A DNA stretch of 64,000 nucleotides from Kordia antarctica. Lineage in GTDB: Bacteria > Bacteroidota > Bacteroidia > Flavobacteriales > Flavobacteriaceae. The stretch covers positions 5,051,501 through 5,115,500 of the forward strand of contig NZ_CP019288.1 in the NCBI RefSeq assembly GCF_009901525.1. The letters run 5' to 3'. Position 1 is the first letter of the stretch. Each line of letters opens with the position of its first letter. The translations under genes and the position numbers were made by a program. This document shows, one piece after another, positions 2,166 to 62,501 of the stretch. The notes under the pieces were generated by a model. That model was not told where the DNA came from. It saw only the letters and a program-made list of their open reading frames with translations, and made no database searches.

Positions 2166-2417
2166 TAATTTCATTTTCTTTGCTCGCACAAAGAAAACAG
2201 AAACAAAAGAAAGTGCGCTTTTAGTTCGTGTGATTTCTATTTTATATTTTGGAACTCATGAATCTTCGATTTCCAGATGTATTTTTAGTTTTTCTTTTAG
2301 GGAAAAACTAAAACCGCATGAATTTTTCTAAATTTTCTCCAAGGATTCGAAAATTCCCTGCTATACTGCGGAAAAGACAAAAAAAACACTCTGTAATTTT
2401 ACATCGAACTCAGGTTA
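2166..2417 (-). repeat. 295-bp dispersed element, decayed copy A
   Basis: Reverse-oriented copy of the element found intact at 5054, 17982, 45217 and 62206. The outer inverted repeat TCGAACTCAGGTT is kept at 2404-2416; the other end is lost. It carries a 48-bp extra block at 2223-2270 that is shared, with one mismatch, only with copy D (29298-29345). It lies on the same strand and 3' of the cold-shock gene, after its terminator. Confidence 0.8.
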
Positions 2418-2478
2418 CTATTAAATATATTAGTTTTTTTGTAATAACAAGTAGTAAATCGTAAAAATAAGACACAAA

Positions 2479-2504
2479 AAAAGCCTATCAATTGATAGGC
2501 TTTT
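2479..2504 (-). terminator. Terminator of the cold-shock gene
   Basis: Perfect 26-bp palindrome (AAAAGCCTATCAA followed by its complement) 31 nt beyond the stop of the cold-shock gene. The A run at 2476-2482 gives a U tract on the minus transcript. Confidence 0.85.
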
Positions 2505-2535
2505 ACTTCATTTAAGAATTAAATATAAATATATA

Positions 2536-2727
2536 TTAAATTACTTTTACGTTCACGGCATTAAGACCTTTACGTCCTTCTTGTAAGTCGAATTCAACTT
2601 CATCTCCTTCACGAACTTCGTCGATTAATCCAGAAATGTGTACAAAATGTTCACTGTTTGAACCTTCTTCAACGATAAATCCAAATCCTTTTGCGTCGTT
2701 GAAAAATTTTACTGTTCCTTTGCTCAT
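2536..2727 (-). CDS. Cold-shock domain protein (CspA family)
   Basis: 63 aa, the usual length for a single cold-shock domain. RNP1 (KGFGFI, residues 13-18) and RNP2 (HFVHIS, about residues 27-32) are intact, so it should bind single-stranded RNA or DNA and act as an RNA chaperone in the cytoplasm. The gene is flanked by a strong promoter at 2761-2791 and a perfect palindromic terminator at 2479-2504, so it forms a single-gene transcript. The predicted 5' leader is only about 28 nt, far shorter than the long thermosensing leader of E. coli cspA. Confidence 0.93.
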   Translation of the reverse strand: MSKGTVKFFNDAKGFGFIVEEGSNSEHFVHISGLIDEVREGDEVEFDLQEGRKGLNAVNVKVI

Positions 2728-2760
2728 TGTAATAAATTTTAATAATTGTTATGATATACG

Positions 2761-2791
2761 CAAAGATAATATCAAAATGCAAATGTTCAAC
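2761..2791 (-). promoter_or_regulatory. Bacteroidetes-type promoter of the cold-shock gene
   Basis: Minus strand reads GTTG, a 19-nt spacer, then TATCTTTG. This matches the Bacteroidetes consensus of a -33 TTG and a -7 TAnnTTTG. The -7 box ends 33 nt before the start codon. Confidence 0.7.
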
Positions 2792-2822
2792 AAATTCTGT
2801 ATTTTTTTTAAGTTCGTTACAA

Positions 2823-3503
2823 TTATTTAATATTGAATTTTCTTATTTTTTCACTCAAACCCACGTCTTTCATGAGGTTCTCAATGATTTTAAAATCTTT
2901 ATTCTTTACAGATTTTTTTATTTTACCTGCCATTAAGTAATGTAAATCGTCGCAAGTGTCTTGTAATGTGGAGAATATATGCAAGGAAAGGATGATTATT
3001 TTACCTTTTTCTTTGAGTAATTTCAGCAATTCTTTAATAATAAGATTGCTTTGAATATCAACACCATTGAATGGCTCATCCAAGATAAAAACATCATTAT
3101 TTTGAAGTAAAACACCTGTCATCGCTAATTTCTTTTTCATTCCTGTGGAATAGGTTTCTGCGTATTGCTGCAATGGCAACTCAAAAATATTCTTTTCTTT
3201 AAAGTCTACATTTTTAATATTTCGCGCATTACAGAGTAATTGTAAATATTCTTTTCCTGTAATTTTAGATAGAAACTCTGGATTCGTTTCTAAAAACCCA
3301 ACAACATTTTTGATATTTCTTTTTTCATATTGAATGTTTCCTTCGTATGATTCCAAACCCGCAATACATTTGAATAAGGTTGTTTTTCCTGCGCCATTTT
3401 CGCCAACAATTCCGTGAATTTCTCCCGAATTGAAATGCAATTCTATTTCATTTAGAATTTGCTTTTTCCCGTATGATTTTGAAAGATTGATAACACTTAA
3501 CAT
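2823..3503 (-). CDS. ABC transporter ATP-binding protein
   Basis: 226 aa. Walker A GENGAGKTT at residues 34-42, signature YSTGMKKKLAM near 117-127, and Walker B FILDEP near 138-143 are all intact. It should power the membrane protein encoded just upstream: its start overlaps the last 7 bp of the gene at 3497-4543, a sign of translational coupling. The closest general type is the ABC-2 exporter ATPase. The cargo is unknown; the last 30 residues past the H-loop are short and lysine-rich. Confidence 0.88.
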   Translation of the reverse strand: MLSVINLSKSYGKKQILNEIELHFNSGEIHGIVGENGAGKTTLFKCIAGLESYEGNIQYEKRNIKNVVGFLETNPEFLSKITGKEYLQLLCNARNIKNVDFKEKNIFELPLQQYAETYSTGMKKKLAMTGVLLQNNDVFILDEPFNGVDIQSNLIIKELLKLLKEKGKIIILSLHIFSTLQDTCDDLHYLMAGKIKKSVKNKDFKIIENLMKDVGLSEKIRKFNIK

Positions 3504-4543
3504 ACTAATATAGAATTAAGTTTTTTGATAGATCGTTTGTAGAAATATGGAATAATCAGAATTAAAAGTGGCGGAAACAGTAAGCAAACCAGCATGGCAA
3601 GTGTTTGAAATAGATGAACTTGTGATGGATAATTACTGTATTTCCCTATAATTGTTAATAGGATAAAAGAATACCCTAACACTGTGAACAACAATGTAAT
3701 TTGTAATCTTTCAAGCGAAAAAAATAAAGACAATCCAATGACAATTGGCAGTACTAAAAAACTGCTGAAAAGGATTGCTGTTTTTATTTTATGGTTTAAA
3801 AATTCTTTTGATGTCATACTGTGAATCCAAATATAATATAAAGGTTCTTGTTTTGAATAAAACGACATGCAACATACAAAAACTGCAATCAGGCTAAAAA
3901 CTCCTAAGTTATAATTATCAACAAAAACAGCAATATAGGTGAGTATGTAGAGTACAGGAAATAACCAAAAAGTATTTCGAAAACCTATGACAAATTCAAA
4001 TGGGTTTTTGCCAAAAGGTGTTGGAATTGTAATGCTTCTGATACCTAGATTATTAAAAAATGATAGCATTATAGCACCAACATGAATGATAATTATTTCT
4101 ATAAAAGCTTGTTTGTAGCAGAGAAAACCACTAAACGGAAGCACAAATAGCGTATTTTCTAACATGCGTACTTTCCAAAATGTTTCTAGCGGAAAGCATT
4201 TTTGTAAAAAGACAGTTCGTTTTATGTTTCCTAACTTCAAAGTTAACAATAAGCCAATACCAATATAGTAATACGAAGCTTGCGAAATATTTTTAAAAAT
4301 AGCTTCAGAAACCCAACTAAAAAGTGCAAGTAATAGCGCAAAACCAATCAGCGGAATGACGCCAAATTCGTCAATATGACGATAGATTCTTTTAAATTGT
4401 AGGGTGAAGTAGAAGTTCAATTTTGTAGTTTTGAGTTTTCTGAAAATCGAATATACATATAAAATTAAGTTTTTAATCTGAAGAAGTTCTGCATTGCTAA
4501 ACTTTAGCGAATTCTTAACAAATCTCGTTAAAGTTGCAAACAC
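3497..4543 (-). CDS. Multi-spanning membrane protein, probable ABC exporter permease
   Basis: 348 aa with about eight or nine hydrophobic segments, after an N-terminal basic stretch of some 70 residues. No family motif was recognised by eye; the permease role is inferred from the coupled ATPase gene (7-bp overlap) and from the segment pattern, which is like ABC-2 permeases encoded next to stand-alone ATPases. The start lies 120 bp from the divergent gene at 4664, so the gap should hold both promoters. Confidence 0.65.
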   Translation of the reverse strand: MFATLTRFVKNSLKFSNAELLQIKNLILYVYSIFRKLKTTKLNFYFTLQFKRIYRHIDEFGVIPLIGFALLLALFSWVSEAIFKNISQASYYYIGIGLLLTLKLGNIKRTVFLQKCFPLETFWKVRMLENTLFVLPFSGFLCYKQAFIEIIIIHVGAIMLSFFNNLGIRSITIPTPFGKNPFEFVIGFRNTFWLFPVLYILTYIAVFVDNYNLGVFSLIAVFVCCMSFYSKQEPLYYIWIHSMTSKEFLNHKIKTAILFSSFLVLPIVIGLSLFFSLERLQITLLFTVLGYSFILLTIIGKYSNYPSQVHLFQTLAMLVCLLFPPLLILIIPYFYKRSIKKLNSILVC

Positions 4544-4663
4544 GTAGTTTTACGTATTTTTTAGCTTCCAGAATAGTTTGCACGATTTTGCCAATTAGTT
4601 TTCTTACTTTTATAAATGGCATAGCTACTGAAAAAACATTTTATAAATTAAAATAAAAACGAT

Positions 4664-5050
4664 ATGTCAGTTCCAAAAACAGGTACGTACGCGCCATTAA
4701 ACAAAACATTGACAATTACAATTGAAAGTGCAGATCCTTCCGATGGTCAAATTCAAGGAACATATGTACATAATTTTACGCCAGAAGGACCAATTACAGT
4801 TTCGGGGAAAGTTGGCGGGTATGCTTGGGTCAAAAATAATGATGGCGGAACCGGAACAGCACCATTTCATATCAACTTTACAGCTTCTGTTCGTCCAGAA
4901 GGTTCGCCGTATTGTATTGTTGATTTTTGGAACGGATTCTACACAAATGATGATACAATTGTAATTACAGGCAGTCGTTCATACGTGAAAAATGATGGCA
5001 CAACGCAGTCTATTGGTTTAGGAACTTTAGAACTGTATTTGCAATCTTAA
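4664..5050 (+). CDS. Small beta-rich protein, possibly avidin-like
   Basis: 128 aa, no signal peptide. The sequence alternates short polar and hydrophobic runs typical of a beta barrel, with GTYAPLNKTLTITI, then DGQIQGTYVH, then PFHINFTASV, and an FWNGFY strand. The order of GT-[YW], QGTY, hydrophobic-N-F and W-x-G-x-[FY] resembles the avidin/streptavidin barrel, but several avidin biotin-binding tryptophans cannot be placed, so this is a weak suggestion. The stop codon is only 3 nt before copy B of the 295-bp element, which may serve as its 3' end. Confidence 0.6.
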   Translation: MSVPKTGTYAPLNKTLTITIESADPSDGQIQGTYVHNFTPEGPITVSGKVGGYAWVKNNDGGTGTAPFHINFTASVRPEGSPYCIVDFWNGFYTNDDTIVITGSRSYVKNDGTTQSIGLGTLELYLQS

Positions 5051-5053
5051 AAA

Positions 5054-5349
5054 AACGTGAGTTCGATATAAAATTTCAGAGTATTGTTTTGTCTTTTCCG
5101 CAGTATAGCAGGGATTTTTCGTTAAGAATTTTCGAAGCCTTGGAGAAAATTTAGAAAAATTCATGCGGTTTTAGTTTTTCCCCTAAAAGAAAAACTAAAA
5201 ATACCTCTGGAAAAGCGCACTTTCTTTTGTTTCTTTTCTTTGTGCGAGCAAAGAAAACGAAAATAACAGAATGAAAATCAAATGCTTAGCAGTTATTTCA
5301 AAGCTATGTTCAAAATTTTATTTGAGTAAACTTACATCAAACTCACGTT
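5054..5349 (+). repeat. 295-bp dispersed element, intact copy B
   Basis: 296 bp bounded by AACGTGAGTTCGA (5054-5066) and TCAAACTCACGTT (5337-5349), one mismatch to the perfect inverted repeat. It holds the hairpins TTTTAGTTTTTC/GAAAAACTAAAA and TTTTCTTTG/CAAAGAAAA and a 26-codon frame at 5271-5351 (MKIKCLAVISKLCSKF...). It starts 3 nt after the stop of the gene at 4664-5050. The flanking AAAA on each side could be a target duplication but is uninformative. Confidence 0.9.
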
Positions 5350-5391
5350 AAAAAAGTATATTTTCTCATAAAAGCATTAGTGTGTCGAAAC

Positions 5392-7380
5392 TTATAGCTT
5401 CTCTTGCAACAACTTAATTTCATCACGATATTTCGCAGCGTCCATAAAATTCAACTCTTTTGCGGCAGTTTCCATTGCTTTTCGCTTTTCGCGAATTAAC
5501 TTTTCTAGTTGTGCTTTGGTCAAGTATTCCAAATCTGGTTCGGCAGCAGCTTTCGCCTTAATTTCATCTTCCCAAGCCAAACTATCATCTTTCCCAAGAA
5601 TTGAACTCAAAGCTTTGTTCAATCCTGTTGGTGTAATGCCATGTTTTGTATTGTATTCTATTTGTTTCTCGCGCCTGTATTCGGTTTCGTCCATTGTTTT
5701 TTGCATACTTTTCGTAATTCTATCCGCATACAAAATTGCTCTTCCATTCACGTTTCTCGCAGCTCTACCAATAGTTTGTGTTAGTGATCGCGCGGAACGT
5801 AAAAAACCTTCTTTATCCGCATCTAAAATCGCTACTAATGATACTTCTGGTAAATCCAATCCTTCACGAAGTAAGTTGATACCAACCAACACATCAAAGA
5901 TACCTTTTCGCAAATCTTGCATAATTTGTACACGTTCCAACGTATCAACATCACTGTGAATGTAGCGACATCGAATTTGAATTCGCGATAGATATTTTGT
6001 CAATTCTTCTGCCATTCTTTTGGTTAAAGTTGTCACCAACACACGTTCATCTTTTTCGGTGCGAAGATGAATTTCTTCTACCAAATTATCAATCTGATTT
6101 AAACTTGGACGCACTTCAATAATCGGATCTAATAATCCTGTCGGACGAATTACTTGTTCTACAACTACGCCTTCTGTTTTGTGCAATTCATAATCCGCAG
6201 GCGTTGCACTTACATAAATTACTTGGTTTTGAATGACTTCAAATTCTTCAAATTTCAAAGGTCGGTTGTCCATTGCGGCTGGCAATCTGAAACCGTATTC
6301 TACTAAGTTTTCTTTTCTACTTCTATCGCCGCCGTACATCGCATGCACTTGCGAAATAGTTACGTGACTTTCATCGACAATCATTAAATAATCATCTGGA
6401 AAATAGTCTAACAAACAAAAAGGACGCGTTCCTGGCGCTCTTCCATCTAAATATCTAGAGTAGTTTTCAATTCCAGAACAATAGCCTAATTCACGAATCA
6501 TTTCCAAGTCAAAATTTGTGCGTTCTTCCAAACGTTTTGCTTCTAAATGTTTTCCTATTTCCTTGAAATAATCTACTTGTTTTACCATATCTTCCTGAAT
6601 TTGATGAATGGCATTTTGCAACACATCTTGCGAGGTTACAAACATATTTGCAGGATAAATGGTGAGTTCTTCGTATTTTTCCAACACATTATTTGTGGCA
6701 GGATCAAACGATTCTATTTCTTCTATTTCATCGCCAAAGAAGTGAATTCTGAATGCAAAATCGGCATAACCAGGAAAAACATCCACCACATCACCTTTCA
6801 CACGAAACGAACCGCGTAAAAAATCGGCTTCCGTTCTGGAATATAAACTTTGCACCAAACGATGTAATAATTTAGTTCGTGAAATCACTTGCTCACGTTC
6901 TAAAGTGATGACATTTTTCTGAAATTCCACAGGATTTCCAATACCATATAAACAGGAAACTGACGCAACTACAATGACATCGCGACGTCCCGAAAGTAGG
7001 GAAGAAGTTGTGCTGAGTCGCAATTTTTCAATTTCTTCGTTAATGGATAAATCTTTTTCAATATACGTTCCCGAAGACGGCATATACGCTTCTGGCTGAT
7101 AATAATCGTAGTAAGACACAAAATATTCCACTGCATTTTCAGGAAAGAATAGCTTAAATTCTGAGTACAATTGTGCTGCCAACGTTTTATTATGTGCTAA
7201 AACAAGCGTTGGTTTTTGAACTTCTTCAATCACATTGGCAACGGTAAATGTTTTTCCCGATCCGGTAACTCCTAACAAGGTTTGATAGCGTTCGTCAGCT
7301 TCAATTCCTGCAATTAATTCTTTGATGGCTTGCGGTTGATCTCCAGTAGGGGAAAAGTCAGATACTAATTTGAATTTCAT
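5392..7380 (-). CDS. uvrB: Excinuclease ABC subunit B
   Basis: 662 aa from the ATG at 7378-7380, which opens the standard UvrB N-terminus (MKFKLVSDFSPTGDQPQAI). Visible features are Walker A GVTGSGKT at residues 37-44, the beta-hairpin region YDYYQPEAY that inserts between DNA strands, helicase motifs with DESH and SATP, and a C-terminal UVR motif for UvrC binding. It acts with UvrA and UvrC in nucleotide excision repair. A longer frame to 7485 is open only because it reads through an intergenic repeat (the spurious phrase WIPAFAGMT), so it is not used. Confidence 0.97.
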   Translation of the reverse strand: MKFKLVSDFSPTGDQPQAIKELIAGIEADERYQTLLGVTGSGKTFTVANVIEEVQKPTLVLAHNKTLAAQLYSEFKLFFPENAVEYFVSYYDYYQPEAYMPSSGTYIEKDLSINEEIEKLRLSTTSSLLSGRRDVIVVASVSCLYGIGNPVEFQKNVITLEREQVISRTKLLHRLVQSLYSRTEADFLRGSFRVKGDVVDVFPGYADFAFRIHFFGDEIEEIESFDPATNNVLEKYEELTIYPANMFVTSQDVLQNAIHQIQEDMVKQVDYFKEIGKHLEAKRLEERTNFDLEMIRELGYCSGIENYSRYLDGRAPGTRPFCLLDYFPDDYLMIVDESHVTISQVHAMYGGDRSRKENLVEYGFRLPAAMDNRPLKFEEFEVIQNQVIYVSATPADYELHKTEGVVVEQVIRPTGLLDPIIEVRPSLNQIDNLVEEIHLRTEKDERVLVTTLTKRMAEELTKYLSRIQIRCRYIHSDVDTLERVQIMQDLRKGIFDVLVGINLLREGLDLPEVSLVAILDADKEGFLRSARSLTQTIGRAARNVNGRAILYADRITKSMQKTMDETEYRREKQIEYNTKHGITPTGLNKALSSILGKDDSLAWEDEIKAKAAAEPDLEYLTKAQLEKLIREKRKAMETAAKELNFMDAAKYRDEIKLLQEKL

Positions 7381-7407
7381 AAAATGTATTTGCTTATGTC
7401 TGTATTT

Positions 7408-7518
7408 GGGCGTTACCACAAGGGTCAGGCTTTCGGCAGTCGCTTTTTGCATTGTCATTCCTGCGAAGGCAGGAATCCAACACAAAAGAGCTCCAACAAT
7501 GCCTTAATCCTTAACGCG
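7408..7518. repeat. GGGCGT...ACGCG intergenic element, copy 1
   Basis: Begins GGGCGTTACC, continues GGTCAGGCTTTCGGCAGTCG and ends CCTTAACGCG. The same frame of motifs recurs at 44644-44795. Here it lies 28 bp upstream of the uvrB start and has the CCTGCGAAGGCAGG palindrome nested inside. Confidence 0.6.
7454..7479. repeat. REP-like palindrome CCTGCGAAGGCAGG, copy 1
   Basis: A 26-bp unit containing TTCCTGCGAAGGCAGGAA, identical to the unit at 40129-40154. One of its frames gives the familiar spurious peptide WIPAFAGMT. Confidence 0.8.
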
Positions 7519-7585
7519 CTGAAGTGCAAAAATAATGAAAACTACTGAAGAAGTTGCAGTTGTGAGGAAATGTGTCTGTAAAACT

Positions 7586-8332
7586 TTAAACTAAAAAATC
7601 AGTATTTCGCATTTCATAATTGAGACCTTGATAATTTTCTTTGTCAATCTGTTTTAAAACAAAATCTAAATGCCAAATTAATCTATTGTATGATCCATTA
7701 TCAATAGCTCTTTGACCAGTAAGCATACTTGTGAAAAATACAGGAGTACCTTCCAACTCTGAATTGTTTATAATAATTTCTGTTCCTAATTCTGGATTAA
7801 ATTCAAACTCAAAGTTTGTAGATATTTTGTGTTTATTTTGTTTCATAAAATATCTGGCAGCAGTATTAGAAACTACAATAATTTTTGGCTTTGCAGATAG
7901 GATTATTTCTCTTGAAATTTGTAATTGCTTATCAAGGAAATCCTTACTGATATTATCTTTCAGTAATTCATCTACAAAACGTTGTTTTGTTTCTCGAAAG
8001 AAAAAAAAATCTAAATGAGACCATTTAATGCTTAGTTTATTCGAAATATCAACAAACTTTTTAAAATAAGGATGAATTTTTCCTTCTAAATTGTTTTCAG
8101 TCTGATCCATGCTAAAAAAGTGACTTTTTGTATCTGATCCTTTTTTAAAAGATGGATTGATACCAATAAAAAGAATCGAATTCTTAATTACTTCTTTGTG
8201 AATTGCATAACCTCTAGATATAATTCTGTCATGAACTTTGTCAGCATTATTCCAAACTGTTATTTCTTGAAACTTTGGGTTTTTCCAAATTTCTTCAATT
8301 TCATCAGAATACTTTTCTTCAATTTGAACCAT
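7586..8332 (-). CDS. Uracil-DNA glycosylase-like protein
   Basis: 248 aa. The phrase SILFIGINPSFKKGS (about residues 50-64) resembles the catalytic GxNPG loop of the uracil-DNA glycosylase superfamily, PKIIVVSNTAAR (about 149-160) resembles its central strand and helix, and VFFTSMLTGQRAIDNGS near the C-terminus lies where the family has its second motif. The protein may remove damaged bases or may be a catalytically altered relative; the usual catalytic histidine motif is not obvious. It stands alone, downstream of the large adhesin gene, with about 110 bp between them. Confidence 0.5.
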   Translation of the reverse strand: MVQIEEKYSDEIEEIWKNPKFQEITVWNNADKVHDRIISRGYAIHKEVIKNSILFIGINPSFKKGSDTKSHFFSMDQTENNLEGKIHPYFKKFVDISNKLSIKWSHLDFFFFRETKQRFVDELLKDNISKDFLDKQLQISREIILSAKPKIIVVSNTAARYFMKQNKHKISTNFEFEFNPELGTEIIINNSELEGTPVFFTSMLTGQRAIDNGSYNRLIWHLDFVLKQIDKENYQGLNYEMRNTDFLV

Positions 8333-8445
8333 ATATATAGTATTATGAAATGATTTTTAGGTTGAATGTTGTAAGCTAACAATTGTTTCTTCCCCAAAAA
8401 ATAAACCTAAAATGAATACAACTATTTTAATTTTTCCCATAGATA

Positions 8446-11400
8446 TTACCGTTTCAACGTAAAATGACCTTTTACATCAAATGATGTTGGACCATCTTTT
8501 ATTTCTGCTAAAAACCAATAATCGCTTGAAGGCAGTTTACGACCTCTGTACGTTCCGTCCCAACCACGATCGCCAGCACGTAAGGTTTTGATGAGTTTTC
8601 CATATCTGTCAAAGATATATACTATCGATTTTGGAAGCGTTTCGATTCCGATAATGTGCCAAGTGTCATTGAAACCATCATTGTTTGGCGTCACAAATTG
8701 AATGTAATCAATGACTACAGCTTCTTCGCTTACTTCGCCACAACCATTTACATCTGAAACAGTTACCGTATGATATCCTGGGCCGACAAATTCAAATACA
8801 TTTGAAACTTGCGGCGTTCCACCATCTAACGAATATAAGTAATCTCCGTTTCCACTTGCGGTTACGGTGATTGTATTGTTGTCAGAGAAGTGTACGACAT
8901 CAATATCAACAATAGTAGCCAATTCCGATTCGTTTACCGTAAAACTTGCCATTGCTGAACAACCAAACGGACTTGTGACAGTTACGTCGTAGGTTCCGAT
9001 GGAAGTAATATTAATAGAAGCTGTCGTTTCACTTGTTGACCAAGCGTATGTGTTTCCAGTTGCCGAACCTGCGGTTACTGTTAGTGGAAGATCGTTTAGA
9101 CATAAGGTAATATCTTCTGGAAGATTTACTTCTGGCAAAGGGTGAATTATGGTATTGAATTGAGTTGTGTCATAACAACCTGTTGTATTGTTTTCGACAC
9201 GGATATGAATAATTTGTCCGTTAAACGCGCTGTATAATGTTGGTAATGGAGCTACATCATTTTGTGCATCTTCAATACTTACATGATAACTTGCTGTAAA
9301 TAATGCTGGATTTTGCGCTCCTAATACGGTTGCTGTTTGTTGTGATAGATTGAATACTTGCGTAGAATCTGTACTGTTACTGATACAGGCTTCCATATCA
9401 CTGACAGGATTTGCATCTGGATTCGGATTGATGTTAATGTCAATACTATCTACAAAATAACAAGTTGTATCATCATTTTCTGCTCTGATAAAGATTGTTT
9501 CTGGATTTGTAGCATAGGTGTAAATATCAGGAAGCGGATTGGTTTCAGTGTCTGCGTCTGCCGCCGAATTGTAATATGATAAGGAAACACCTGTAGCATC
9601 ATCAATGATGATTTCGTCTATTTGGCGTAAATCGACTGTTCCAGGTATTTCGGCTTCACAGAAAGTAGCTTCTGTAACATTGTTTAGCAATGGTGGTAAA
9701 TTCACATGTAATGTAAACGGAATTACGACATAACAACCCGAAATGGTATTGATTAATCGTACAAAAATTGGTTGCGGATTGGTTACGTTTGTATAATTTG
9801 TTGGGTCAGGAATTGCGTTGGTTCCATCGTCTGCATCTTCTTGTGTTTCGTGATAGGTGATGACAACATTATCTTGTCTGATATTTAATATAAAGAATTC
9901 AGCTTCTGTCAAATCGAAAAGAACTTGTCCATCATAATCTGTATCACAAACCGTTACATCTGGTGCCGGATTTGTTTCAGGAACTTGAATTACATTTAAT
10001 TCAAAATCGACCACAATCATACAGTCAGAATCATTTGTAATTCTGGTATATATTGCATGCGGATTTGTAACGTTGGTAAATGTATTTCCAATCGGATCTA
10101 CATTATTCGTTGCATCATCAAAAGATAAGTGAAAAGAGATGACTAAGTTTTGTGAAATTCCCGCACGGATTTCTGCTTCTGTGTCGGTAAGATCAAACGT
10201 GTCAATTCCGTCATTACTAGCATCATCACAGACAAAAATATCTGTTGGCTCATTATACATTGGCGCAGGACTTACTTGAATTACAAAGGAAGAAACTGCA
10301 AAACAATCTGGATCTGTATCATTTTCAATACGCACATGAATTGTTTGCGGATTTGTTTGGTTTGCGTATGAAACCGTTTTGTCAATTTCGTTTGTTTTGT
10401 CCAAAGCATCTTGATCCGTTGGATAGTAGAAAACTGTCATTGCTGTTTGACCATTTAAGATTTCATCATCTTTGATCTCCATAATGAAGTTTTCAGTTTG
10501 ATCTGCATCTGTTTCACACAATTGATAAAAATCTGTGGCAATAACTTCTGGAATTGTATTTACAATAATCGGTAGTTCTACTACTGTAAAACAGCCTGTT
10601 GTAGCATTTTCTACACGAACATATGCAGATGATGTTGCTGTATTATAGACAGTAGGATCTGGAATTATGTTGGTATTCTCAAAAGCATCTGCTTCCAAGG
10701 AATGATAGCTAATGTTGATATTGGTTAAGTCTGCAATAATTTCTGGTTGACTTTGCGTTAAATCTACATCTGCAATACCGTCAGTATCTTCATCACATCT
10801 TAACAAGGTAGACGGTTGCATAACTGTTGGTGCTGGCAATATTTCAATAAGAAACGATGAAATTTCTGTACAGTTCGTTGCAGGATTGGTATACCTATAA
10901 AATATTTCTTGTGGATTGGATGAGTTTACATACGGAGCTACAATAGGATTGGCAAAAACGTTCGCATCGCCTGGTGTTTCATAATAAGATATAGTATATG
11001 TGGTATTTGCGCCTTGAATTGTGGATGTAAATGTAGTTAAATCAATTGCTACAACGAAGTCATCATCGGTGTCGCAATACGTTAACGTGCCAAGGTTTGG
11101 AGCCGTAACATTCGGATGCACAGTTAAGGTAATCTCAGCAAAATCTTCACAGCCCATATCATCTGAAAGTGTTAGGAAAATATCTTGCGGATTGGAAGTG
11201 TTTGAATATAGAACTGTAATGTCAATAGGATTTACAGCATTGGTTCTATCATCTTCACTTTCGTAAAATACAATACCCACATAATCCAAATTATTTTGAA
11301 TCCTATCAAAAACCGTTTGAAGGTTGAATTCAAAAATACCATCATTACTCGGATCATCACAACGAATGACGTTTTCAATATTTGTAGCGGTTAATAACGC

Positions 11401-13266: not shown

Positions 13267-13294
13267 AGGAATGGGGTTAAGTCATTGTTTCCGA

Positions 13295-17981: not shown

Positions 17982-18276
17982 AACCTGAGTTCGATCTAAA
18001 ATTTCAGAGTATTTTTTTGTCTTTTCCGCAGTATAGCAGGGATTTTTCGTTAAGAATTTTCGAATCCTTGGAGAAAATTTAGAAAAATTCATGCGGTTTT
18101 AGTTTTTCCCTAAAAGAAAAACTAAAAATACCTCTGGAAAAGCGCACTTTCTTTTGTTTCTTTTCTTTGTGCGAGCAAAGAAAACGAAAATAATGATATG
18201 AAAATGAGATACTTATTACTTATTGCGAAAATGTGTTCAAAATTTTATTTGAGTAAACTTATGTCGAACTCACGTT
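17982..18276 (+). repeat. 295-bp dispersed element, intact copy C
   Basis: 295 bp bounded by AACCTGAGTTCGA (17982-17994) and TCGAACTCACGTT (18264-18276). ATG lies directly outside each end (17979-17981 and 18277-18279), a possible 3-bp target duplication. Nearly identical to copy E. The internal frame MKMRYLLLIAKMCSKFYLSK starts at 18198; here it has no stop at the element end and runs on into flanking DNA. It begins 37 nt after the stop of the deoxyribosyltransferase-like gene. Confidence 0.92.
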
Positions 18277-29149: not shown

Positions 29150-29506
29150 TAATAAATACTGCTTTTTTTCGCAATCCGTCCTTTTTCCGAAGTGTAGTAT
29201 TTATTTTTCGTTAAGAATTTTTGAAGCCTTGGAAAAAATTTAGAAAAATGAATGCGGTTTTAGTTTTTCAGAGAAAAAACTAAAAACACCTCTGGAAATC
29301 GAAGATTCATGAGTTCTAAAATATAAAATAGAAATCACACGAACTAAAAACGCACTTTCTTTTGTTGACGCCTGTGCTGAACTTGATTCAGTATTCTTTG
29401 TGCGAACAAAGAAAAAGAAAATTAGAACCTGAAAATGAAGTTTAAATTTCTAAGTTTTGTTAAAAATTATCTATGTGTTATTTGAAAAACTCATATTGAA
29501 TTTACA
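29150..29506 (+). repeat. 295-bp dispersed element, decayed copy D
   Basis: Recognisable from the CGTTAAGAATTTT segment, the TTTTAGTTTTTC/GAAAAAACTAAAA hairpin and the TTTGTGCGAACAAAG hairpin, but both inverted-repeat ends are eroded. It carries the 48-bp block shared with copy A (29298-29345) and is interrupted by a second repeat containing GCTGAACTTGATTCAG near 29377. The mini-ORF is cut short by an early stop. Unlike the other copies it is antisense to the flanking genes. It fills most of the 440-bp gap. Confidence 0.7.
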
Positions 29507-44643: not shown

Positions 44644-44795
44644 GGGCGTGTCCTCCGAAAAAACGGAGGTCAGGCTATTCGCTGTATCTTTTTGGTTCAT
44701 TTCGATAGCTACGCTAGGTATTATCAATCAAAATGTATTTTGATTTCAATAATGCTCAATGTGCCAAAAAGGATGCCGCTTCTATCCTTCACGCG
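44644..44795. repeat. GGGCGT...ACGCG intergenic element, copy 2
   Basis: Begins GGGCGTGTCC, has the hairpin CCTCCG/CGGAGG, then GGTCAGGCTATTCGC and ends CTATCCTTCACGCG; same outline as 7408-7518. It takes up much of the 430-bp gap 44608-45038; the rest, 44820-45038, is AT-rich leader DNA of the peptide gene. Confidence 0.6.
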
Positions 44796-45038
44796 TGTGC
44801 TGAATAGCGTGGAAGTGCAAATATAAAATCTTCCAGAGAATATTTAGACAAAAAAGAAATATCTAACAGATTCTATCAATTTTAGAAGAAATTTATGGTT
44901 TTTAAACAGTTTGTTATTTGTTAAGAATCATCTAGTAAATAAGCTACTCTAAATTTATAAATGCCGAGAATCATTTGTTGTGTATTCAATTTAGTTAACA
45001 TAATATTGAGTAATACATAACCACAAAAACTTTATGCC

Positions 45039-45216: not shown

Positions 45217-45510
45217 AACCTGAGTTCGATATAAAATTTCAGAGTTTTTTTTGGCTTTTCCGCAGTATAGCAGGGATTTTTCGTTAAGAATTTTCGAATC
45301 CTTGGAGAAAATTTAGAAAAAATCATGCGGTTTTAGTTTTTCCCTAAAAGAAAAACTAAAAATACCTCTGGAAAAGCGCACTTTCTTTTGTTTCTTTTCT
45401 TTGTGCGAGCAAAGAAAACGAAAATAATGATATGAAAATGAGACACTTATTACTTATTGCGAAAATGTGTTCAAAATTTTATTTGAGTAAACTTATGTCG
45501 AACTCACGTT
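45217..45510 (+). repeat. 295-bp dispersed element, intact copy E
   Basis: 294 bp bounded by AACCTGAGTTCGA (45217-45229) and TCGAACTCACGTT (45498-45510), a perfect match apart from one base. AAT is on both sides (45214-45216 and 45511-45513), a likely 3-bp target duplication lying in the stop codon of the peptide gene. The mini-ORF is at 45432-45512. Downstream DNA resumes the terminator seen after the second peptide gene, so the element was inserted between gene and terminator. Confidence 0.93.
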
Positions 45511-49639: not shown

Positions 49640-49659
49640 AGTTCTATAAAAGTGTAAAA

Positions 49660-54091: not shown

Positions 54092-54112
54092 AAACCAAAC
54101 TTGATTTGGTTT
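54092..54112. repeat. Intergenic hairpin AAACCAAA/TTTGGTTT
   Basis: 8-bp perfect stem with a 5-nt loop, followed by a partial echo GATTTGGTGTGAAAC and the dispersed word CTTCGACTCCGCTCAG. It lies in the 322-bp gap 53982-54304, which has no gene. Confidence 0.5.
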
Positions 54113-54184
54113 CACATAACCGTGAGCCATGATTTGGTGTGAAACTGCACTTCGACTCCGCTCAGCACTCGGAATAAAAATCAA

Positions 54185-54216
54185 AAAAGCCGTTTAGTTT
54201 TAACTAAACGGCTTTT
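54185..54216. terminator. Bidirectional terminator between mazG and the DUF349 gene
   Basis: 15-bp perfect inverted repeat AAAAGCCGTTTAGTT/AACTAAACGGCTTTT with A and T runs on the outside, between convergent genes. Confidence 0.85.
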
Positions 54217-54241
54217 GTATATATAAAATATTCTATAATTT

Positions 54242-54276
54242 CATAACTCATAACTCATAACTCATAACTCATAACT
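54242..54276. repeat. Tandem heptamer CATAACT x5
   Basis: Five perfect copies of CATAACT. The complement, AGTTATG, is repeated three times at about 43374-43397. Confidence 0.85.
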
Positions 54277-54304
54277 GAGCATCGAGCAGAGCGAAATGCG
54301 AAAT

Positions 54305-56446: not shown

Positions 56447-56571
56447 AAAAATGTTTGGGTTCGTTTCGTTTCTTTTTCTAGCTTTAAAACTCGAATATAC
56501 TAACAACTAACAAAACGACAAAGTTTTACAGATGAGAAACCTCCATAATCGGCGTAAAAAAGGTGGGTTTA

Positions 56572-57315
56572 TTAAGAATTCCATATTTTCCAAGCTTTTT
56601 CTGCTTGAAATTCTAACATTTTGGAACCATTTACAATTTGAGCGCCTTGTAAGCGTCCGAGTTTCAGAAAGGTAGTTTCGGACGGATTGTAGATTAAATC
56701 GAACAATAAAAAGTCTTTAGAAACATATTTATACGGAATATCTGGGCAATCTTCAATTTTTGGAAACGTACCTAAAGGCGTACAATTCACAATTATTGAA
56801 TGTGATTTCATGATTTTTTCGCTTAAATCTTGATAGGATATGGATTGATTATTTTTCGGTTTCCGAGAAACATATTTATACGAAATATTCAATTCTTCAA
56901 ACACAAATGCAATCGCTTTTGATGCGCCGCCAGTTCCTAAAATTAATGCTTTTTTATGATGCCTTTTAAGATGTGGTTTGATTGATTTTTCGAATCCGTA
57001 ACAATCTGTATTGTATCCTTTTAGACTTCCATCTTTTTGAATTTTAATCGTATTTACAGCACCAATTTTTTTTGCTTTTTTGTGTAAATCATCTAAGTAC
57101 GGAATTACCGTTTCTTTGTACGGAATTGTTACATTCATTCCTTTGATTGTGGTGTTTTTTTCAAAAATCTTAGGAAAATCTTCAATAGATGGAATATCAA
57201 AATTTACATATGAATAATTAGCTAGTTTTAGCACTTTAAATTTCTTCGTGAAATATCCTTTTGAAAACGAGTAGGAGATATGTTTTCCGAGCAATCCGAA
57301 TAGTGATTTAGACAT
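56572..57315 (-). CDS. aroE: Shikimate dehydrogenase
   Basis: 247 aa from the ATG at 57313-57315, chosen because FGLLGKHISYSFSKGYFT should be near the N-terminus; another ATG six codons upstream is possible. The catalytic lysine lies in MNVTIPYKETV, the shikimate-binding Asn/Asp in YNTDCYGFEKS, and the NADP loop in LILGTGGASKAIAF. It reduces 3-dehydroshikimate in aromatic amino acid synthesis. The start overlaps the end of the DUF368 gene by 8 bp. Confidence 0.93.
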   Translation of the reverse strand: MSKSLFGLLGKHISYSFSKGYFTKKFKVLKLANYSYVNFDIPSIEDFPKIFEKNTTIKGMNVTIPYKETVIPYLDDLHKKAKKIGAVNTIKIQKDGSLKGYNTDCYGFEKSIKPHLKRHHKKALILGTGGASKAIAFVFEELNISYKYVSRKPKNNQSISYQDLSEKIMKSHSIIVNCTPLGTFPKIEDCPDIPYKYVSKDFLLFDLIYNPSETTFLKLGRLQGAQIVNGSKMLEFQAEKAWKIWNS

Positions 57316-58345
57316 TTTTTGTTCGTTTTCCATACCAATCTATAGCTAACACTACTGAAATTCCGATGCCAATAAAAAATACAGCAATCCACGTTTCGCT
57401 TGCAGAAATATCAGGAATGAGTCGTTTGTAATTTTGAATAATTTGCTTTCCGTTTGAATCTTGCAAATAGACGCCAGCTTCGTTTACTTTGTAAATGGTT
57501 TCTTTCCAAGGCCAAACTACGCCAAGTGAACCAGAAATAAATCCAATAATTATTGCCGTTGTGATATTTTTGTAATGTTTTAAGACATAACTTAAAAGGT
57601 GCGATAATGTAACCAATCCGACAGCAGAACCTGCAGTAAATACTGCTAAAATCTTTAAATCGATAATGCGTTGAGAATCGCTAGTAAAAGAAAAATCGCC
57701 ACGAACTATATCTGAAATTGTGTCATATAATGCATTTACAGAATCGACCAATAATAATACATAGTTTCCGAGTAATATTAAGATAAACGAACCAGAAAGT
57801 CCAGGCAATGTCATTCCTGAAACACTGATAATTCCACATAAAAAGACAAAACCTAAATGATCATTTTTCATTGCAGGATTCATCAAACTAATGGCAATTC
57901 CAACAGAAATTCCAATCAGCAAACTTAGGATTGTAGTTCGATTCCAGTGGTTAAAATCTTTTGCGATGTAATAAATAGAACCGAGAATCATCCCAAAAAA
58001 AGCAGACCAAACATAGAGTTCGTAATGCTGAATGAAATAATCAAGGATTTTGGAAACACTAAAGTAACTGATTAACATTCCCAGAATCAATAAACTTAAA
58101 AACCGTCCGTTTATGTATTGATAGAAACCTTTAAATCGTCCGTTAAAAAGTAGTTTGAACGCTTTTCCATTAACGCGTTGCAACGAGAAGATAAATTCTT
58201 CGTAAAAACCAGCAACAAATGCTACGATTCCGCCAGAAACACCAGGAACTTTGTTCGCTGCGCCCATAGCCAAACCTTTGACGATAAGTAAGATTTTATC
58301 TTTGAGCGTTCGCGTGTTTTGCTTGCTTTTGTTCGTGTTAATCAT
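57308..58345 (-). CDS. DUF368 family membrane protein (PopT-like), copy 2
   Basis: 345 aa, about nine membrane segments. The signature MGAANKVPGVSGGIVAFVAGFYEEFI and the inner repeat SGMTLPGLSGSFILILLGNY are as in PopT, a DUF368 protein shown to recycle undecaprenyl phosphate across the membrane. It starts within the last four bases of the paralogue upstream (overlap ATGA) and leads into aroE. Two tandem copies may have different lipid or pH ranges. Confidence 0.9.
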   Translation of the reverse strand: MINTNKSKQNTRTLKDKILLIVKGLAMGAANKVPGVSGGIVAFVAGFYEEFIFSLQRVNGKAFKLLFNGRFKGFYQYINGRFLSLLILGMLISYFSVSKILDYFIQHYELYVWSAFFGMILGSIYYIAKDFNHWNRTTILSLLIGISVGIAISLMNPAMKNDHLGFVFLCGIISVSGMTLPGLSGSFILILLGNYVLLLVDSVNALYDTISDIVRGDFSFTSDSQRIIDLKILAVFTAGSAVGLVTLSHLLSYVLKHYKNITTAIIIGFISGSLGVVWPWKETIYKVNEAGVYLQDSNGKQIIQNYKRLIPDISASETWIAVFFIGIGISVVLAIDWYGKRTKNV

Positions 58346-59289
58346 TCATGATTTTTATTTTTTCGCGTTGCGAATTTTTCCATCATAAAAATAGTCAGAA
58401 ATCCGATAACCATCAACACAATTGCGAAAAGAAGTTTTGGATCTAAGTTATTTACAGTTTCAAACGTATTTGGTAAGATGCTTTTTCCGTACACATTTAC
58501 TTCTTCTCCATGCGAATCAACTCGTGTTCCGGTGATTATTTTCCAAGGCCAAATCTTATTTAAAGAACCTAATATGAAGCCTGTTAAAATGGCTAATGTC
58601 AGGTTTTTATAGTTGTTGAATAACCATTTTAAGATTTTTGAAAATGATAGTAAACCAATAATTGCTCCAACTGCAAAAATGGCAATGGTTTTAAAATCTC
58701 GCTCGTCAATTGCATTCAAAACTGGTTCGTATGCACCTAAAAGTACTAAGATAAATGCACCTGAAATTCCAGGAAGAATCATGGCGCAAATTGCCAATGC
58801 GCCAGCAACGAATATAAACCATGACGAATTTACACTTTCTTCGCCACCTGGTAATGTTGTAATGTAGTAGGCTACAATCGCGCCAAGCGTAAAACCTAGA
58901 ATAGTTTTCCAGTTCCAGCTTTCTATTTGTTTTCCGATGAATAGAATACTTGCAATGACCAAACCGAAGAAAAACGCCCATAATAATATAGGTTCCGTGT
59001 TTAGTAAGGTTTTTATGAGTTTTGCCAACGAAAGTATACTGATTCCGATTCCGATCATTAAGGCAAGCAGAAAGTTTCCGTTGAGTTGTGTCCAAGCAGC
59101 TTTAATTCCGTCTTTTCGTAAGGTTTTGAAAAGACTCAAATTTACATTGTTGATCGAAGTGATCAATTCTTCATAAATTCCAGAAATAAAAGCGATTGTT
59201 CCACCAGAAACGCCAGGCACAACATCGGCTGCGCCCATTGCTAAACCTTTGAATGTAATTATTAAATAATCGAATAGACTTCTATTCAT
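58342..59289 (-). CDS. DUF368 family membrane protein (PopT-like), copy 1
   Basis: 315 aa, paralogous to the gene that follows it by overlap. MGAADVVPGVSGGTIAFISGIYEELI and CAMILPGISGAFILVLLGAYEP are the duplicated half-motifs of the family. Both genes end with KIWPWK or similar near the last loop. The pair would return undecaprenyl phosphate to the cytoplasmic face for peptidoglycan and O-antigen building. Confidence 0.9.
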   Translation of the reverse strand: MNRSLFDYLIITFKGLAMGAADVVPGVSGGTIAFISGIYEELITSINNVNLSLFKTLRKDGIKAAWTQLNGNFLLALMIGIGISILSLAKLIKTLLNTEPILLWAFFFGLVIASILFIGKQIESWNWKTILGFTLGAIVAYYITTLPGGEESVNSSWFIFVAGALAICAMILPGISGAFILVLLGAYEPVLNAIDERDFKTIAIFAVGAIIGLLSFSKILKWLFNNYKNLTLAILTGFILGSLNKIWPWKIITGTRVDSHGEEVNVYGKSILPNTFETVNNLDPKLLFAIVLMVIGFLTIFMMEKFATRKNKNHE

Positions 59290-59358
59290 GTGTAGCTAGT
59301 TATTAGTTTAATTTCATTCATAAGTAATTATGAATACTACACGCAAAAGTATGGAATT

Positions 59359-60765
59359 TTATGTGGACGGTTTTTTAAATTCTGAAATAATATTTTTGAC
59401 CGAAACACGCATAAAAATACTTGGAAAAAGTTTTTCAAATTGCAAGTGTTGTGTAAAGTTGTTTCGCAATGCATTTTTTAGATGAAACGTTCCTTTTGTT
59501 TGTTCGCCTAGCGTGAAATAGATTCCTGCCAATCGGTATTCAATTTTTGAATGATCTGGAAAAAATTCCAACGCTTGCAAAAGTACATGAACGCCATTGC
59601 TGTATTCGCCTAGAAGCTTTAAAATATCTGCCCAAGCAATCCAAGTAGACAGTTCATAGTTTCCTAATTCGACCGTTTTTTGATAGGCAATATCTGCTTC
59701 TTCATAGAGTTGCAATGCTCTGTGAATTTCTGCACTTCGTCTCCAATATGAAACATTTTCAGTATCAATATTAATCGCTTTATTGATGTAATGCAACGCT
59801 TTTTGATAGTTTTCTTCCTTTATATAATAGTCTGTAATTGCTGTCCAACCTTTATCTAATAACGGATCTTCATGAACCGTTTTGTAGTAGAATTTTACTG
59901 CTAAGTCTTTTTTGCCTAGCTTTTCATAACATTTTCCAATGCGTAAGAATGCAAACGAAGTTGGATCGTCTAAATCTAACGTTATTTGATAGTTGTGAAT
60001 TGCTTCTTCGTATTCGCCTAGTTTTTCGAGTACTTTTCCTTTTTCAAGATATGCACCAATAAAACGATCGTCAGCAATAATAGCAAAGTCAAAAGCGGCT
60101 AATGCTTCTATAAATAATTTTTTGGTGTAATATTGTTTTCCTAATTGATGCCAAGCAACTTCCGAATACGGATTTTTGTCTATGTAACTGTTTAAGTATT
60201 CAATAGCGCCGTCAATATCTTCTAAAAACTCAAAACAATAAATCGCGTTGTATAAGGAAGAATAATCGTCCATATCAAACTCAATACACTTTAAAAAGTG
60301 ATGTTTTGCTTCTTTAAAATCTTCAATAAATAAATATTCCATTCCAATTAATGAGTTGACATCTGCCATATCATCTGTGAATTCCAACGCCATTTTTAAT
60401 AACTCAATGGCTTTGTAATGTTGATCTCTTTTGGAATAGATATTTGCTTTCTGAATATAGACTTCAGCATTATTCGTCTCTAAAACATAGAGTTTGTCTA
60501 GTAATTTTTCGGCTTCATTTAGTTTGTTTTCATACACCATCAATTCGATTTCCATGAGTTTTAAATTCACAGAACTCGGATGTTGTTCTAAACTTATTTT
60601 TATAGCTTTTTTGGCTAAGGCAACTTTCCCTGAATCTAAGTAATGATGAATGATATCTTCAAATTCAGAAGAGTCAAAAAACAAAACATTGTTTGTCTTC
60701 AACATCGATTCAAACTTCGAAAGCGCTAAATTTTGATCTTCATTAGAGCTAAATAGCATAAGCAA
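59359..60765 (-). CDS. Tetratricopeptide repeat protein
   Basis: 468 aa, soluble, no signal peptide. About ten or eleven TPR units can be traced, for example AEVYIQKANIYSKRDQHYKAIELL, SEVAWHQLGKQYYTKKLFIEAL and FIGAYLEKGKVLEKLGEYEEAI. Likely a protein-protein scaffold in the cytoplasm. It stands upstream of the DUF368 genes with 69 bp between, so co-transcription is possible. The partner is unknown. Confidence 0.9.
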   Translation of the reverse strand: MLMLFSSNEDQNLALSKFESMLKTNNVLFFDSSEFEDIIHHYLDSGKVALAKKAIKISLEQHPSSVNLKLMEIELMVYENKLNEAEKLLDKLYVLETNNAEVYIQKANIYSKRDQHYKAIELLKMALEFTDDMADVNSLIGMEYLFIEDFKEAKHHFLKCIEFDMDDYSSLYNAIYCFEFLEDIDGAIEYLNSYIDKNPYSEVAWHQLGKQYYTKKLFIEALAAFDFAIIADDRFIGAYLEKGKVLEKLGEYEEAIHNYQITLDLDDPTSFAFLRIGKCYEKLGKKDLAVKFYYKTVHEDPLLDKGWTAITDYYIKEENYQKALHYINKAINIDTENVSYWRRSAEIHRALQLYEEADIAYQKTVELGNYELSTWIAWADILKLLGEYSNGVHVLLQALEFFPDHSKIEYRLAGIYFTLGEQTKGTFHLKNALRNNFTQHLQFEKLFPSIFMRVSVKNIISEFKKPST

Positions 60766-60958
60766 TACGCGTTTTTAGATTTCTATAATATTAAAAGTAG
60801 TTGATGCAAGTGTTGTTTTTTGGGTTTGAAGCCAATTGTTTTCAACAAAGTAATCAACAAGTGTTAATTATTGCCTGTGAGACAATTAATTGATTTTTAG
60901 CGGTTTGTTCTATTTTTCGGTTGTTTTGATGACTATTTATAACGAATTTTGGTTTTAT

Positions 60959-62140
60959 TTAGTCTTTTATGGTTCGTAAAACTTTCATAATAACGGCGCA
61001 ACCTTGCTTAATTTCATCTTTTGAAATCGTTAATGGTGGCGTAATTCGCACGGCTTTTGGCTCAAATAATAGCCAAAAAAGGATCAAACCTTCTTCCAAA
61101 CAACCTAATATTATTTGATTCGCAACAGCTGCATTTTTCACAATTAGCGACAACATTAATCCTTTTCCGCGAATTTCTTCAATGTATTTGTGTTGTAATA
61201 ATTCTCGGAATAATTCTTCTTTTAGTACTGTTTGAGCCATTAAAGTACTTTCTGTAATTTCTTTTAATGTTGCCAAACTTGCTGCTGCAATTACTGGATG
61301 ACCGCCAAACGTTGTTATATGTCCTAGTTTTGGTTGCTCTTGTAACGTGTCCATTATTTCTGCGGAAGCTGTAAATGCTCCAACAGGCATTCCGCCGCCC
61401 ATTCCTTTTCCCATTACTAAAACATCTGGTATAACATCATAGTGTTGAAAGCCAAATAGTTTTCCTGTGCGACCAAATCCGGGTTGTATTTCGTCTAAAA
61501 TCAACAATGCGCCGACTTCTACACAACGTTGTTTTACTTTTTTTAAATAATTATTTGTTGGAACAATAAAACCTGCGCCACCTTGAATAGTTTCTAAAAT
61601 AACGCCAGCCGTTTTCGTTGTAATTTTCTCTAAATCTTCTTCATTATTGAACTGAATAAAATGGACATCGGGCAATAATGGTCTGAAAGCTTGTTTGCGT
61701 TCTTCAAAACCCATTACGCTCAATGCGCCATGTGTATTTCCGTGATACGCATTGTTTGCAGCAATTAATTCCGAACGTCCTGTGTAGCGTTTTGCTAATT
61801 TTAAAGCACCTTCAATAGCTTCTGTTCCTGAGTTTGTTAGGTATGTTTTTTCTAACGGATTTGGCAATAGAGAAGCTAACAATTTTGTCAATTCCACTGC
61901 TGATTTTTGCACATATTCTCCATAAACCATGACATGCAAATAGGAATCTAATTGCTTTTTAATCGCATTGACAACTCTTGGATGTCTGTGTCCTAAACTA
62001 CATGCAGAAACACCAGCTACAAAATCTAAATATTCTTTGTTATTTGTATCATAGATGTAACTTCCTTCCGCATGCGAAACTTCCATTGCGAGCGGATGCG
62101 GCGTTGTTTGTGCTTGGTATTTTAAAAAATCTTTTTTCAT
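60959..62140 (-). CDS. Class III PLP-dependent aminotransferase
   Basis: 393 aa from ATG 62138-62140 (MKKDFLKYQAQTTPHPLAME). YLTNSGTEAIEGALKLAKRYTGR is the PLP phosphate site, LILDEIQPGFGRTGKLF the Asp motif, and VMGKGMGGGMPVGAF bears the PLP lysine. It resembles acetylornithine, 4-aminobutyrate and related aminotransferases; the substrate cannot be told. The frame is open to 62284 only because the mini-ORF of copy F of the 295-bp element is in frame with it; the longer start is rejected. Confidence 0.92.
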   Translation of the reverse strand: MKKDFLKYQAQTTPHPLAMEVSHAEGSYIYDTNNKEYLDFVAGVSACSLGHRHPRVVNAIKKQLDSYLHVMVYGEYVQKSAVELTKLLASLLPNPLEKTYLTNSGTEAIEGALKLAKRYTGRSELIAANNAYHGNTHGALSVMGFEERKQAFRPLLPDVHFIQFNNEEDLEKITTKTAGVILETIQGGAGFIVPTNNYLKKVKQRCVEVGALLILDEIQPGFGRTGKLFGFQHYDVIPDVLVMGKGMGGGMPVGAFTASAEIMDTLQEQPKLGHITTFGGHPVIAAASLATLKEITESTLMAQTVLKEELFRELLQHKYIEEIRGKGLMLSLIVKNAAVANQIILGCLEEGLILFWLLFEPKAVRITPPLTISKDEIKQGCAVIMKVLRTIKD

Positions 62141-62205
62141 AGAAATTGTTTGCAAAGATACGAAGTTAATTGGTGGGTTTTTGATTGAAAAATTAAACAT
62201 TAAAT

Positions 62206-62501
62206 AACGTGAGTTCGACATAGTTTTACTTAAGTAAAATTTTGAACATATTTTAAAAATAAGTGCTAAGTATTTGATTTTCATTTTTTTTTATTTTCGT
62301 TTTCTTTGTTCGCACAAAGAAAAGAAACAAAAGAAAGTGCGCTTTTCCAGAGGTATTTTTAGTTTTTCTTTTAAGGAAAAACTAAAACCGCATGAATTTT
62401 TCTAAATTTTCTCCAAGGATTCGAAAATTCTTAACGAAAAATCCCTGCTATACTGCGGAAAAGACAAAAAACACTCTGAATTTTTATATCGAACTCAGGT
62501 T
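62206..62501 (-). repeat. 295-bp dispersed element, intact copy F
   Basis: 296 bp bounded by AACGTGAGTTCGA (62206-62218) and TCGAACTCAGGTT (62489-62501), flanked by AAAT on both sides (62202-62205 and 62502-62505), a possible 4-bp target duplication. The mini-ORF (MKIKYLALIFKICSKFYLSK) starts at 62284 on the minus strand and runs without a stop into the aminotransferase frame. It lies 65 bp before the aminotransferase start. The rest of the 663-bp gap holds the hairpin at 62637. Confidence 0.92.

Follow-up and report, generated by a model that had tools for sequence, protein, structure and literature searches.

A repeat of Kordia antarctica with IS982-family ends and a conserved structured RNA interior, a candidate portable 3′ untranslated or intercistronic segment

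We analysed a window of 64,000 nt from Kordia antarctica (Flavobacteriaceae; RefSeq GCF_009901525.1, NZ_CP019288.1), positions 5051501-5115500 of a 5,500,985-bp single-contig genome, for a repeat of about 295 bp that a sequence-only reading of the same DNA had described as mobile-looking and present in six copies. All six copies were located in the window at or near the coordinates first proposed. Four were full length and 91-98% identical, with the 13-bp inverted ends AACSTGAGTTCGA and TCGAACTCASGTT that had already been recognised, a single mismatch lying in the right end of copy 2, and were too short to code for a transposase. The other two had been delimited less well: copy 1 exists but runs from 2081 to 2416 rather than from 2166 to 2417, and the copy at 29150 has kept its core and hairpin (29176-29414), with just one strongly decayed right end left of its ends. 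The features, which join a miniature inverted-repeat transposable element (MITE) to a structured RNA core, are given below in window coordinates, with target site duplications (TSDs) where seen.

2081..2416 (-): copy 1, old, common to K. aestuariivivens, decayed second end at 2081
2268-2382 (-): RNA core of copy 1, 13 nt lost, a nested insert next to the core, after it
5054..5349 (+): copy 2, intact MITE, both 13-bp ends, AAAAA on either side (low complexity)
5087..5256 (+): RNA core of copy 2 (5087-5215, model R2) with 3′ hairpin and candidate pseudoknot
17982..18276 (+): copy 3, intact MITE, TSD ATG, 98-99% identity to two other copies
18015..18183 (+): RNA core of copy 3 (18015-18142) with 3′ hairpin and candidate pseudoknot
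29150..29506 (+): copy 4, decayed ends (right end only, strongly decayed)
29176-29300 (+): RNA core of copy 4; hairpin region with two nested inserts, to 29414
45217..45510 (+): copy 5, intact MITE, TSD AAT, 98% identity to copy 3
45249..45417 (+): RNA core of copy 5 (45249-45376) with 3′ hairpin and candidate pseudoknot
62206..62501 (-): copy 6, intact MITE, TSD ATTT (read on the - strand)
62301..62469 (-): RNA core of copy 6 (62342-62469) with 3′ hairpin and candidate pseudoknot

A genome search with an 18-bp end pattern (up to 2 mismatches) yielded 98 hits, compared with 6 for the reversed-pattern control, and this difference, together with the presence of all six window copies, rules out a chance repeat. 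Combining pattern and BLAST hits gave 65 sites, and 48 of these measured 100 bp or more. Both 13-bp ends (up to 3 mismatches) were present in 41 of these 48, three of which (912418, 1805693 and 4241264) had a shortened or different interior. Direct repeats flanked 35 of the 41 two-ended copies (3 bp, n = 12; 4 bp, n = 14; 5 bp, n = 9), whereas random pairing of left and right flanks gave a mean of 6.9 duplications and a maximum of 17 in 10,000 trials. The joined flanks of two copies elsewhere in the genome were then queried against ten other Kordia genomes. Those of the copy at 3345463 matched across the junction in nine of the ten, seven of them over nearly the whole query, with no match in G009; the first part of this query also matched about 3.1 kb away in G001 and G006. 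Those of the copy at 2442132 matched across the junction in all ten. In the junction alignments (nine and six, respectively) the flanks met without the element, the target bases having diverged in some. Base-level empty sites were not obtained for the four intact window copies, whose flanks could not be aligned up to both borders. A search of 60 kb of G001 in synteny with the window yielded no core; copies 2-6 thus lack a counterpart in that sequence. The sequence-only reading had held that mobility would fall if all relatives carried the repeat at the same sites without empty ones; empty sites exist, and the copy found in common is copy 1, whose position in K. aestuariivivens, on another contig, is likewise occupied by a core, the right-hand remnant and flank being shared as well. 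By these comparisons the repeat is real and mobile. The one copy queried against phage and plasmid collections matched nothing there, and viral contigs gave no match to an exact 35-mer pattern taken from the apical arm.

Lone ends in sister species led to an IS982-type gene. The transposase homologue in G005 was assigned to IS982 by NCBIfam NF033520 (244.5 bits against a cutoff of 130) and to DDE_Tnp_1_3 in Pfam; the transposase of K. algicida (G002) is 55% identical to this G005 protein, on which the family scan was made. The K. algicida genome contains five identical 1015-bp insertion sequence (IS) copies with a 297-aa open reading frame. Their perfect ends, AACCTGAGTTCGA, show 0 mismatches to the 13-bp end of the repeat on both sides in all five, and 3-bp duplications (AAA, TCT, TCA, AAT and AAT) flank them. 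A 1017-bp copy interrupted by stops lies in G007, and some transposase match was present in 7 of the 11 genomes searched. In the K. antarctica genome, a single search with a related transposase returned just two fragments, of 44 and 24 residues, in line with the earlier proposal of an enzyme outside the window. That reading had left open a MITE or a REP-type family and suggested comparing the ends with IS families. Repetitive extragenic palindrome (REP) and bacterial interspersed mosaic element (BIME) repeats, associated with RAYT, are short palindromes without target duplication, and a REP family is ruled out for this element by its IS ends and TSDs. Terminal inverted repeats, TSDs, empty sites and the presence in sister species of an IS982-family element that shares these ends make it virtually certain, as far as sequence can tell, that the repeat is a MITE with IS982-family ends, which would have been moved in trans by an IS982 transposase. 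Within the 40 best BLAST rows, MITE and IS matched at the ends only, over 18-35 bp, with no sign of an interior derived from the parental IS; the repeat thus appears to be IS982-mobilised and not a plain deletion derivative of the IS copies found. G000, G004 and G005 contain MITEs that share the ends but have interiors that are unrelated and in part REP-like, and thus several payloads are found between such ends. Other MITEs of 188-216 bp, with the same IS982 ends and a different interior holding REP-like pairs, lie at genome positions 1805693-1805880 and 4241264-4241451 and at loci L128-L133, L134, L135 and L137.

The interior that the sequence-only reading overlooked is a core of about 125 nt followed by a 3′ hairpin, predicted to form a three-way junction. 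The best matches in G002 and G003 were 91-95% identical over positions 36-212 and 81-83% over the full length. We read 36 loci with the exact core pattern and found paired substitutions there. A first hand-drawn structure for 38 Kordia sequences had 95.3% of cells paired and 81 double-change cells, compared with 22.5 after shuffling and at most 15 after sliding, and three of its five pseudoknot pairs were changed on both sides. Two helices, GUAU/AUAC (or GUGU/ACAC) and GAAUUUUY/RAAAAUUU, came from running RNAalifold on this first set of aligned sequences, and the final structure consisted of H1 (CUUUUCCG/UGGAAAAG), H1b, H2, H2b and H3. Over 37 Kordia sequences, 96.4% of cells pair in the final structure, 19 of 44 pairs show a change on both sides, and double-change cells number 107 against 31.0 shuffled (maximum 49 of 300 shuffles) and at most 12 with the partner slid. 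Adding one sequence from a metagenome-assembled genome gave 96.1% paired cells, 23 of 44 pairs, and 117 double-change cells against 31.8 shuffled and at most 17 slid. Across genera there were 682 such cells against 204.6 shuffled and at most 206 slid, in 38 of 44 pairs; this cross-genus alignment, having been fitted to the model, is biased in its favour, whereas the hand-drawn and 37-sequence Kordia counts are free of that bias. One such double change, GUAU/AUAC to GUGU/ACAC, separates copy 1 from its counterpart in G001. One-sided changes gave 98 G·U versus 9 A·C cells in Kordia and 103 versus 11 across genera, and this G·U excess in one orientation fixes the RNA strand, which is the + strand at 17982. 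The apical hairpin is nearly invariant (UCGUUAARAAUUUUYGAARCCUUGGA...UUUAG). The loop of the 3′ hairpin can pair with the strand just 5′ of that hairpin as a candidate pseudoknot: the mean run between loop and own upstream strand was 4.39, compared with 3.32 for swapped copies (maximum 3.81 in 5,000 swaps), and runs of at least 4 occurred in 31 of 36 copies of a chosen set, mostly from other genera. This covariation argues that the fold is almost certainly under selection.

At the gathering score, Rfam matched no core in the window, in 12 other loci or in 7 further loci, which rules out a known Rfam RNA, and a permissive search with one copy returned 13 matches, none below E = 0.27. The family was found neither in Rfam 15 nor in a search of open-licence PMC papers (including PMC9723704 and PMC2864571). 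The RNA core is the new half of the element, and the MITE half belongs to an already known kind, the IS982-derived MITEs. An intrinsic terminator was judged unlikely by eye, given the A-rich DNA after the 3′ hairpin and the position of several copies inside operons. An RNA variant with similar outer helices and a different apical arm, without the CGUUAA...CCUUGG hairpin, lies at L207:3362-3477 and 6946-7062 and at L194:6410-6523 and 10917-11031. Two nested mini-inserts recur in the core and hairpin region (window 29176-29414; other copies, e.g. L010 and L016): one is a REP-like palindrome (GTGCTGAACTTGATTCAGTATTC), the other a module of about 50 bp that starts AAATCGAAGATTCATGA.

We next scored 17 candidates per genome with a first covariance model of the RNA (R1, threshold 1e-4) in 199 sampled Flavobacteriaceae genomes. 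Matches were obtained in 38, two of them Kordia; of the 36 positive genomes among the 197 non-Kordia ones, 32 had 1-3 copies found, and most of the non-Kordia copies are intergenic and sense. A second model (R2), with up to 150 candidates scored per genome, identified at least 111 core copies in the K. antarctica genome (150 of 5357 candidates scored), many without IS ends. The earlier extrapolation to hundreds of copies was accordingly too high. R2 also found 73 copies in G001, 36 in G002, 3 in G005, 1 in G007 and none in G010, and 1-15 copies in 14 other genera chosen for their R1 matches. In a phylum sample, 5 of 395 genomes matched, K. antarctica included, all of them Flavobacteriaceae; with 8 candidates scored in each, this is a weak test outside the family. 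Among 90 K. antarctica copies examined, 39 had both IS ends, 15 one end and 36 none, the one-end class being unreliable in that random window stretches also reached 3 or fewer mismatches (330 nt, 42/400; 65 nt, 5/400). In G063 (L188:9056-12039) the RNA occurs in two groups of three copies, 361-391 bp apart, which suggests tandem amplification.

The RNA was more conserved than the upstream gene in all six comparisons of orthologous sites. In G078, G167 and G178, representing three genera, one copy lies between nucleoside phosphorylase and methyltransferase genes; there identity was 88.5-95.1% in the core, 75.5-80.0% in the upstream gene, 67-81% in the 5′ spacer (44-101 gap columns) and 82-88% in the 33-34-nt 3′ spacer. 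At the paaA-paaB site of the phenylacetate (paa) operon, the values were 87% for the core, 82% for the upstream gene, 62% for the 5′ spacer and 85% for the 3′ spacer; at two other paa sites they were 84-85%, 80-82% and 59-60% for core, upstream gene and 5′ spacer, respectively.

Orientation was counted in tandem gene pairs as sense against antisense, the counts for the upstream gene alone (79/103; 68/90) being inflated by convergent sites. The K. antarctica genome had 41 sense and 16 antisense copies (P = 0.0013), and G001 had 13 and 4 (P = 0.049). Outside Kordia there were 26 and 4 (P = 6e-5), same-operon copies being non-independent. The median distance from the stop codon of a co-oriented upstream gene to the core was 57 nt in K. 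antarctica. In five genomes, all copies found lie in the paa operon (G055, 3/3; G101, 2/2; G151, 2/2; G039, 1/1; G095, 1/1), where they are intergenic, in several different gaps and sense; in G106, four of six copies counted do so. The domains encoded at the paa loci are PaaA, PaaB, thiolase and aldehyde dehydrogenase/MaoC.

On balance, we favour a two-layer element, an IS982-type MITE carrying a portable 3′ untranslated region (UTR) or intercistronic RNA, as the rather more probable account of these sequence data. The first layer, evident from the sequence, is a non-autonomous MITE with IS982-family 13-bp ends, at which a trans-acting transposase would duplicate 3-5 bp of target. The second, revealed by covariation, is the conserved structured RNA of the interior, which exists without IS ends in other Flavobacteriaceae. 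Of the two alternatives in the earlier reading the MITE is supported; what that reading lacked was this RNA family with an existence apart from the MITE. Read-through transcription would make the RNA the 3′ UTR or an intercistronic segment of the upstream gene, and the RNA might then act in cis on that mRNA, in the way suggested for ERIC and NEMIS RNAs, by affecting its stability or processing or by uncoupling adjacent cistrons; for such cis action we put the chances at about even. In Kordia, the IS982 ends would have turned the RNA into a dispersing module. A bolder version, which we hold tentatively and with doubts that outweigh our confidence, is that this new complex RNA class is a portable control module of Flavobacteriaceae for a putative conserved protein, recurrent in the paa operon of several genera and captured in Kordia by IS982 ends, which spread it to dozens of sites and built a post-transcriptional regulon.

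Several observations weigh against the two-layer account. G001 copies bearing terminal inverted repeats show no sense bias (1 versus 3), and outside Kordia, besides the non-independence of same-operon copies, the downstream gene is also co-oriented (32/46, P = 0.011). No shared gene function accounts for all sites, and the restriction to the paa operon in five genomes is left without explanation. The short 3′ spacer is conserved as well (82-88% over 33-41 nt). Copies within one operon can be alike (93.5% for the two in G101), and orthologous paa copies, at 84-87%, are hardly more similar than different copies within G055, at 78-86%, so gene conversion may explain part of the pattern.

The fold might instead be selected as single-stranded DNA, like REP or attC, and the core be spread by a recombinase or a replication protein that recognises this strand-specific DNA structure, the RNA being irrelevant. 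The core has dispersed without IS982 ends in other genera, including the two groups in G063, and folded DNA also allows G·T pairs, with which the G·U counts are compatible. However, what is biased in Kordia is the upstream gene, together with sense placement in tandem pairs, the downstream gene being unbiased (47/90), even though both neighbours are biased outside Kordia; sites are retained across genera; and neither a target duplication nor an enzyme could be assigned to core-only copies, no systematic search having been made for either. We regard this alternative as unlikely. A purely selfish MITE, with a core conserved through recent masters and homogenisation, no host function and a sense bias produced by purging of harmful insertions, would fit the 98-99% identity of the most similar copies, the predominance of convergent over divergent sites (27 versus 6, expected under purging) and the likeness of copies within one operon. 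Against it stand the occurrence of the core in 36 non-Kordia genomes, 32 of them with 1-3 copies found, the excess of core over upstream-gene identity in all six orthologous comparisons and the strong covariation, and we give it little credence. That the copies are separate small RNA genes, each transcribed from a promoter of its own and active in trans, is very improbable: size, complexity and the nearly invariant apical arm in Kordia would suit a small RNA, but a promoter-like TTG-N17-22-TAnnTTTG motif lay upstream of 1 of 90 copies compared with 1.18 expected from base shuffles, and the placement is sense, shortly 3′ of a stop codon.

Among described systems, MITECca01 of Cardinium (PMC9769881) is an IS982-derived MITE of about 240 bp in 169 mostly intergenic copies without transposase, and the Kordia repeat resembles it in size, IS982-family ends, lack of transposase, high copy number and mostly intergenic position. 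Cardinium still has intact copies of the parental IS, from which its MITE is said to derive; in contrast, the K. antarctica genome gave only transposase fragments in one search, the match to the IS is confined to the ends in the 40 best rows, and a conserved RNA family makes up the interior. ERIC/IRU and Correia/NEMIS (PMC2229807) are MITE-like and about 100-200 bp long, and their transcripts form stem-loops that have been proposed to influence adjacent mRNA. The Kordia repeat resembles them in MITE-like character and similar size, and orientation matters for ERIC (PMC2229807); whereas they are described there as long stem-loops, the Kordia RNA combines a three-way junction and a candidate pseudoknot, can be separated from the IS ends and covaries across genera. 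The Kordia RNA shows sense placement, and for it co-transcription with the adjacent mRNA and an effect on that mRNA are putative. Flavo-1 (RF01705) is a structured RNA listed for Bacteroidetes in PMC2864571, and the new core is likewise a structured RNA of Bacteroidetes; it differs in sequence from Flavo-1, whose model is a single hairpin, and is unmatched in Rfam at the gathering score. One Flavo-1 lies in the window (44664-44805, -), with a REP-like insert in its loop, and three lie in two of the paa-bearing loci (L191:5904-5987, L193:9205-9323 and L193:15395-15469), so that these regions collect intergenic RNAs.

The element joins a MITE and a conserved folded RNA, which are usually studied separately. 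The RNA family, with strong covariation and no Rfam match, is directly testable, and its concentration in the paa operon of five genomes provides a natural test case. If the RNA acts on mRNA, Kordia would show how a transposase can place a regulatory RNA at dozens of sites before it is itself lost.

Two further loci concern the IS982 ends. At L126:2001-4040 (G005) the IS982 frame continues into what we take to be Rep-like replication protein sequence, and no matching second IS end was seen there. At L054:2501-6200 (genome 5377586-5381285), a 3.7-kb unit lies between two element ends with CTA flanking both sides and contains two genes, one for an SMC/ABC-type ATPase (589 aa) and one for a PIN-domain protein (140 aa); this cargo may be moved by the MITE ends, or it may have split a MITE.

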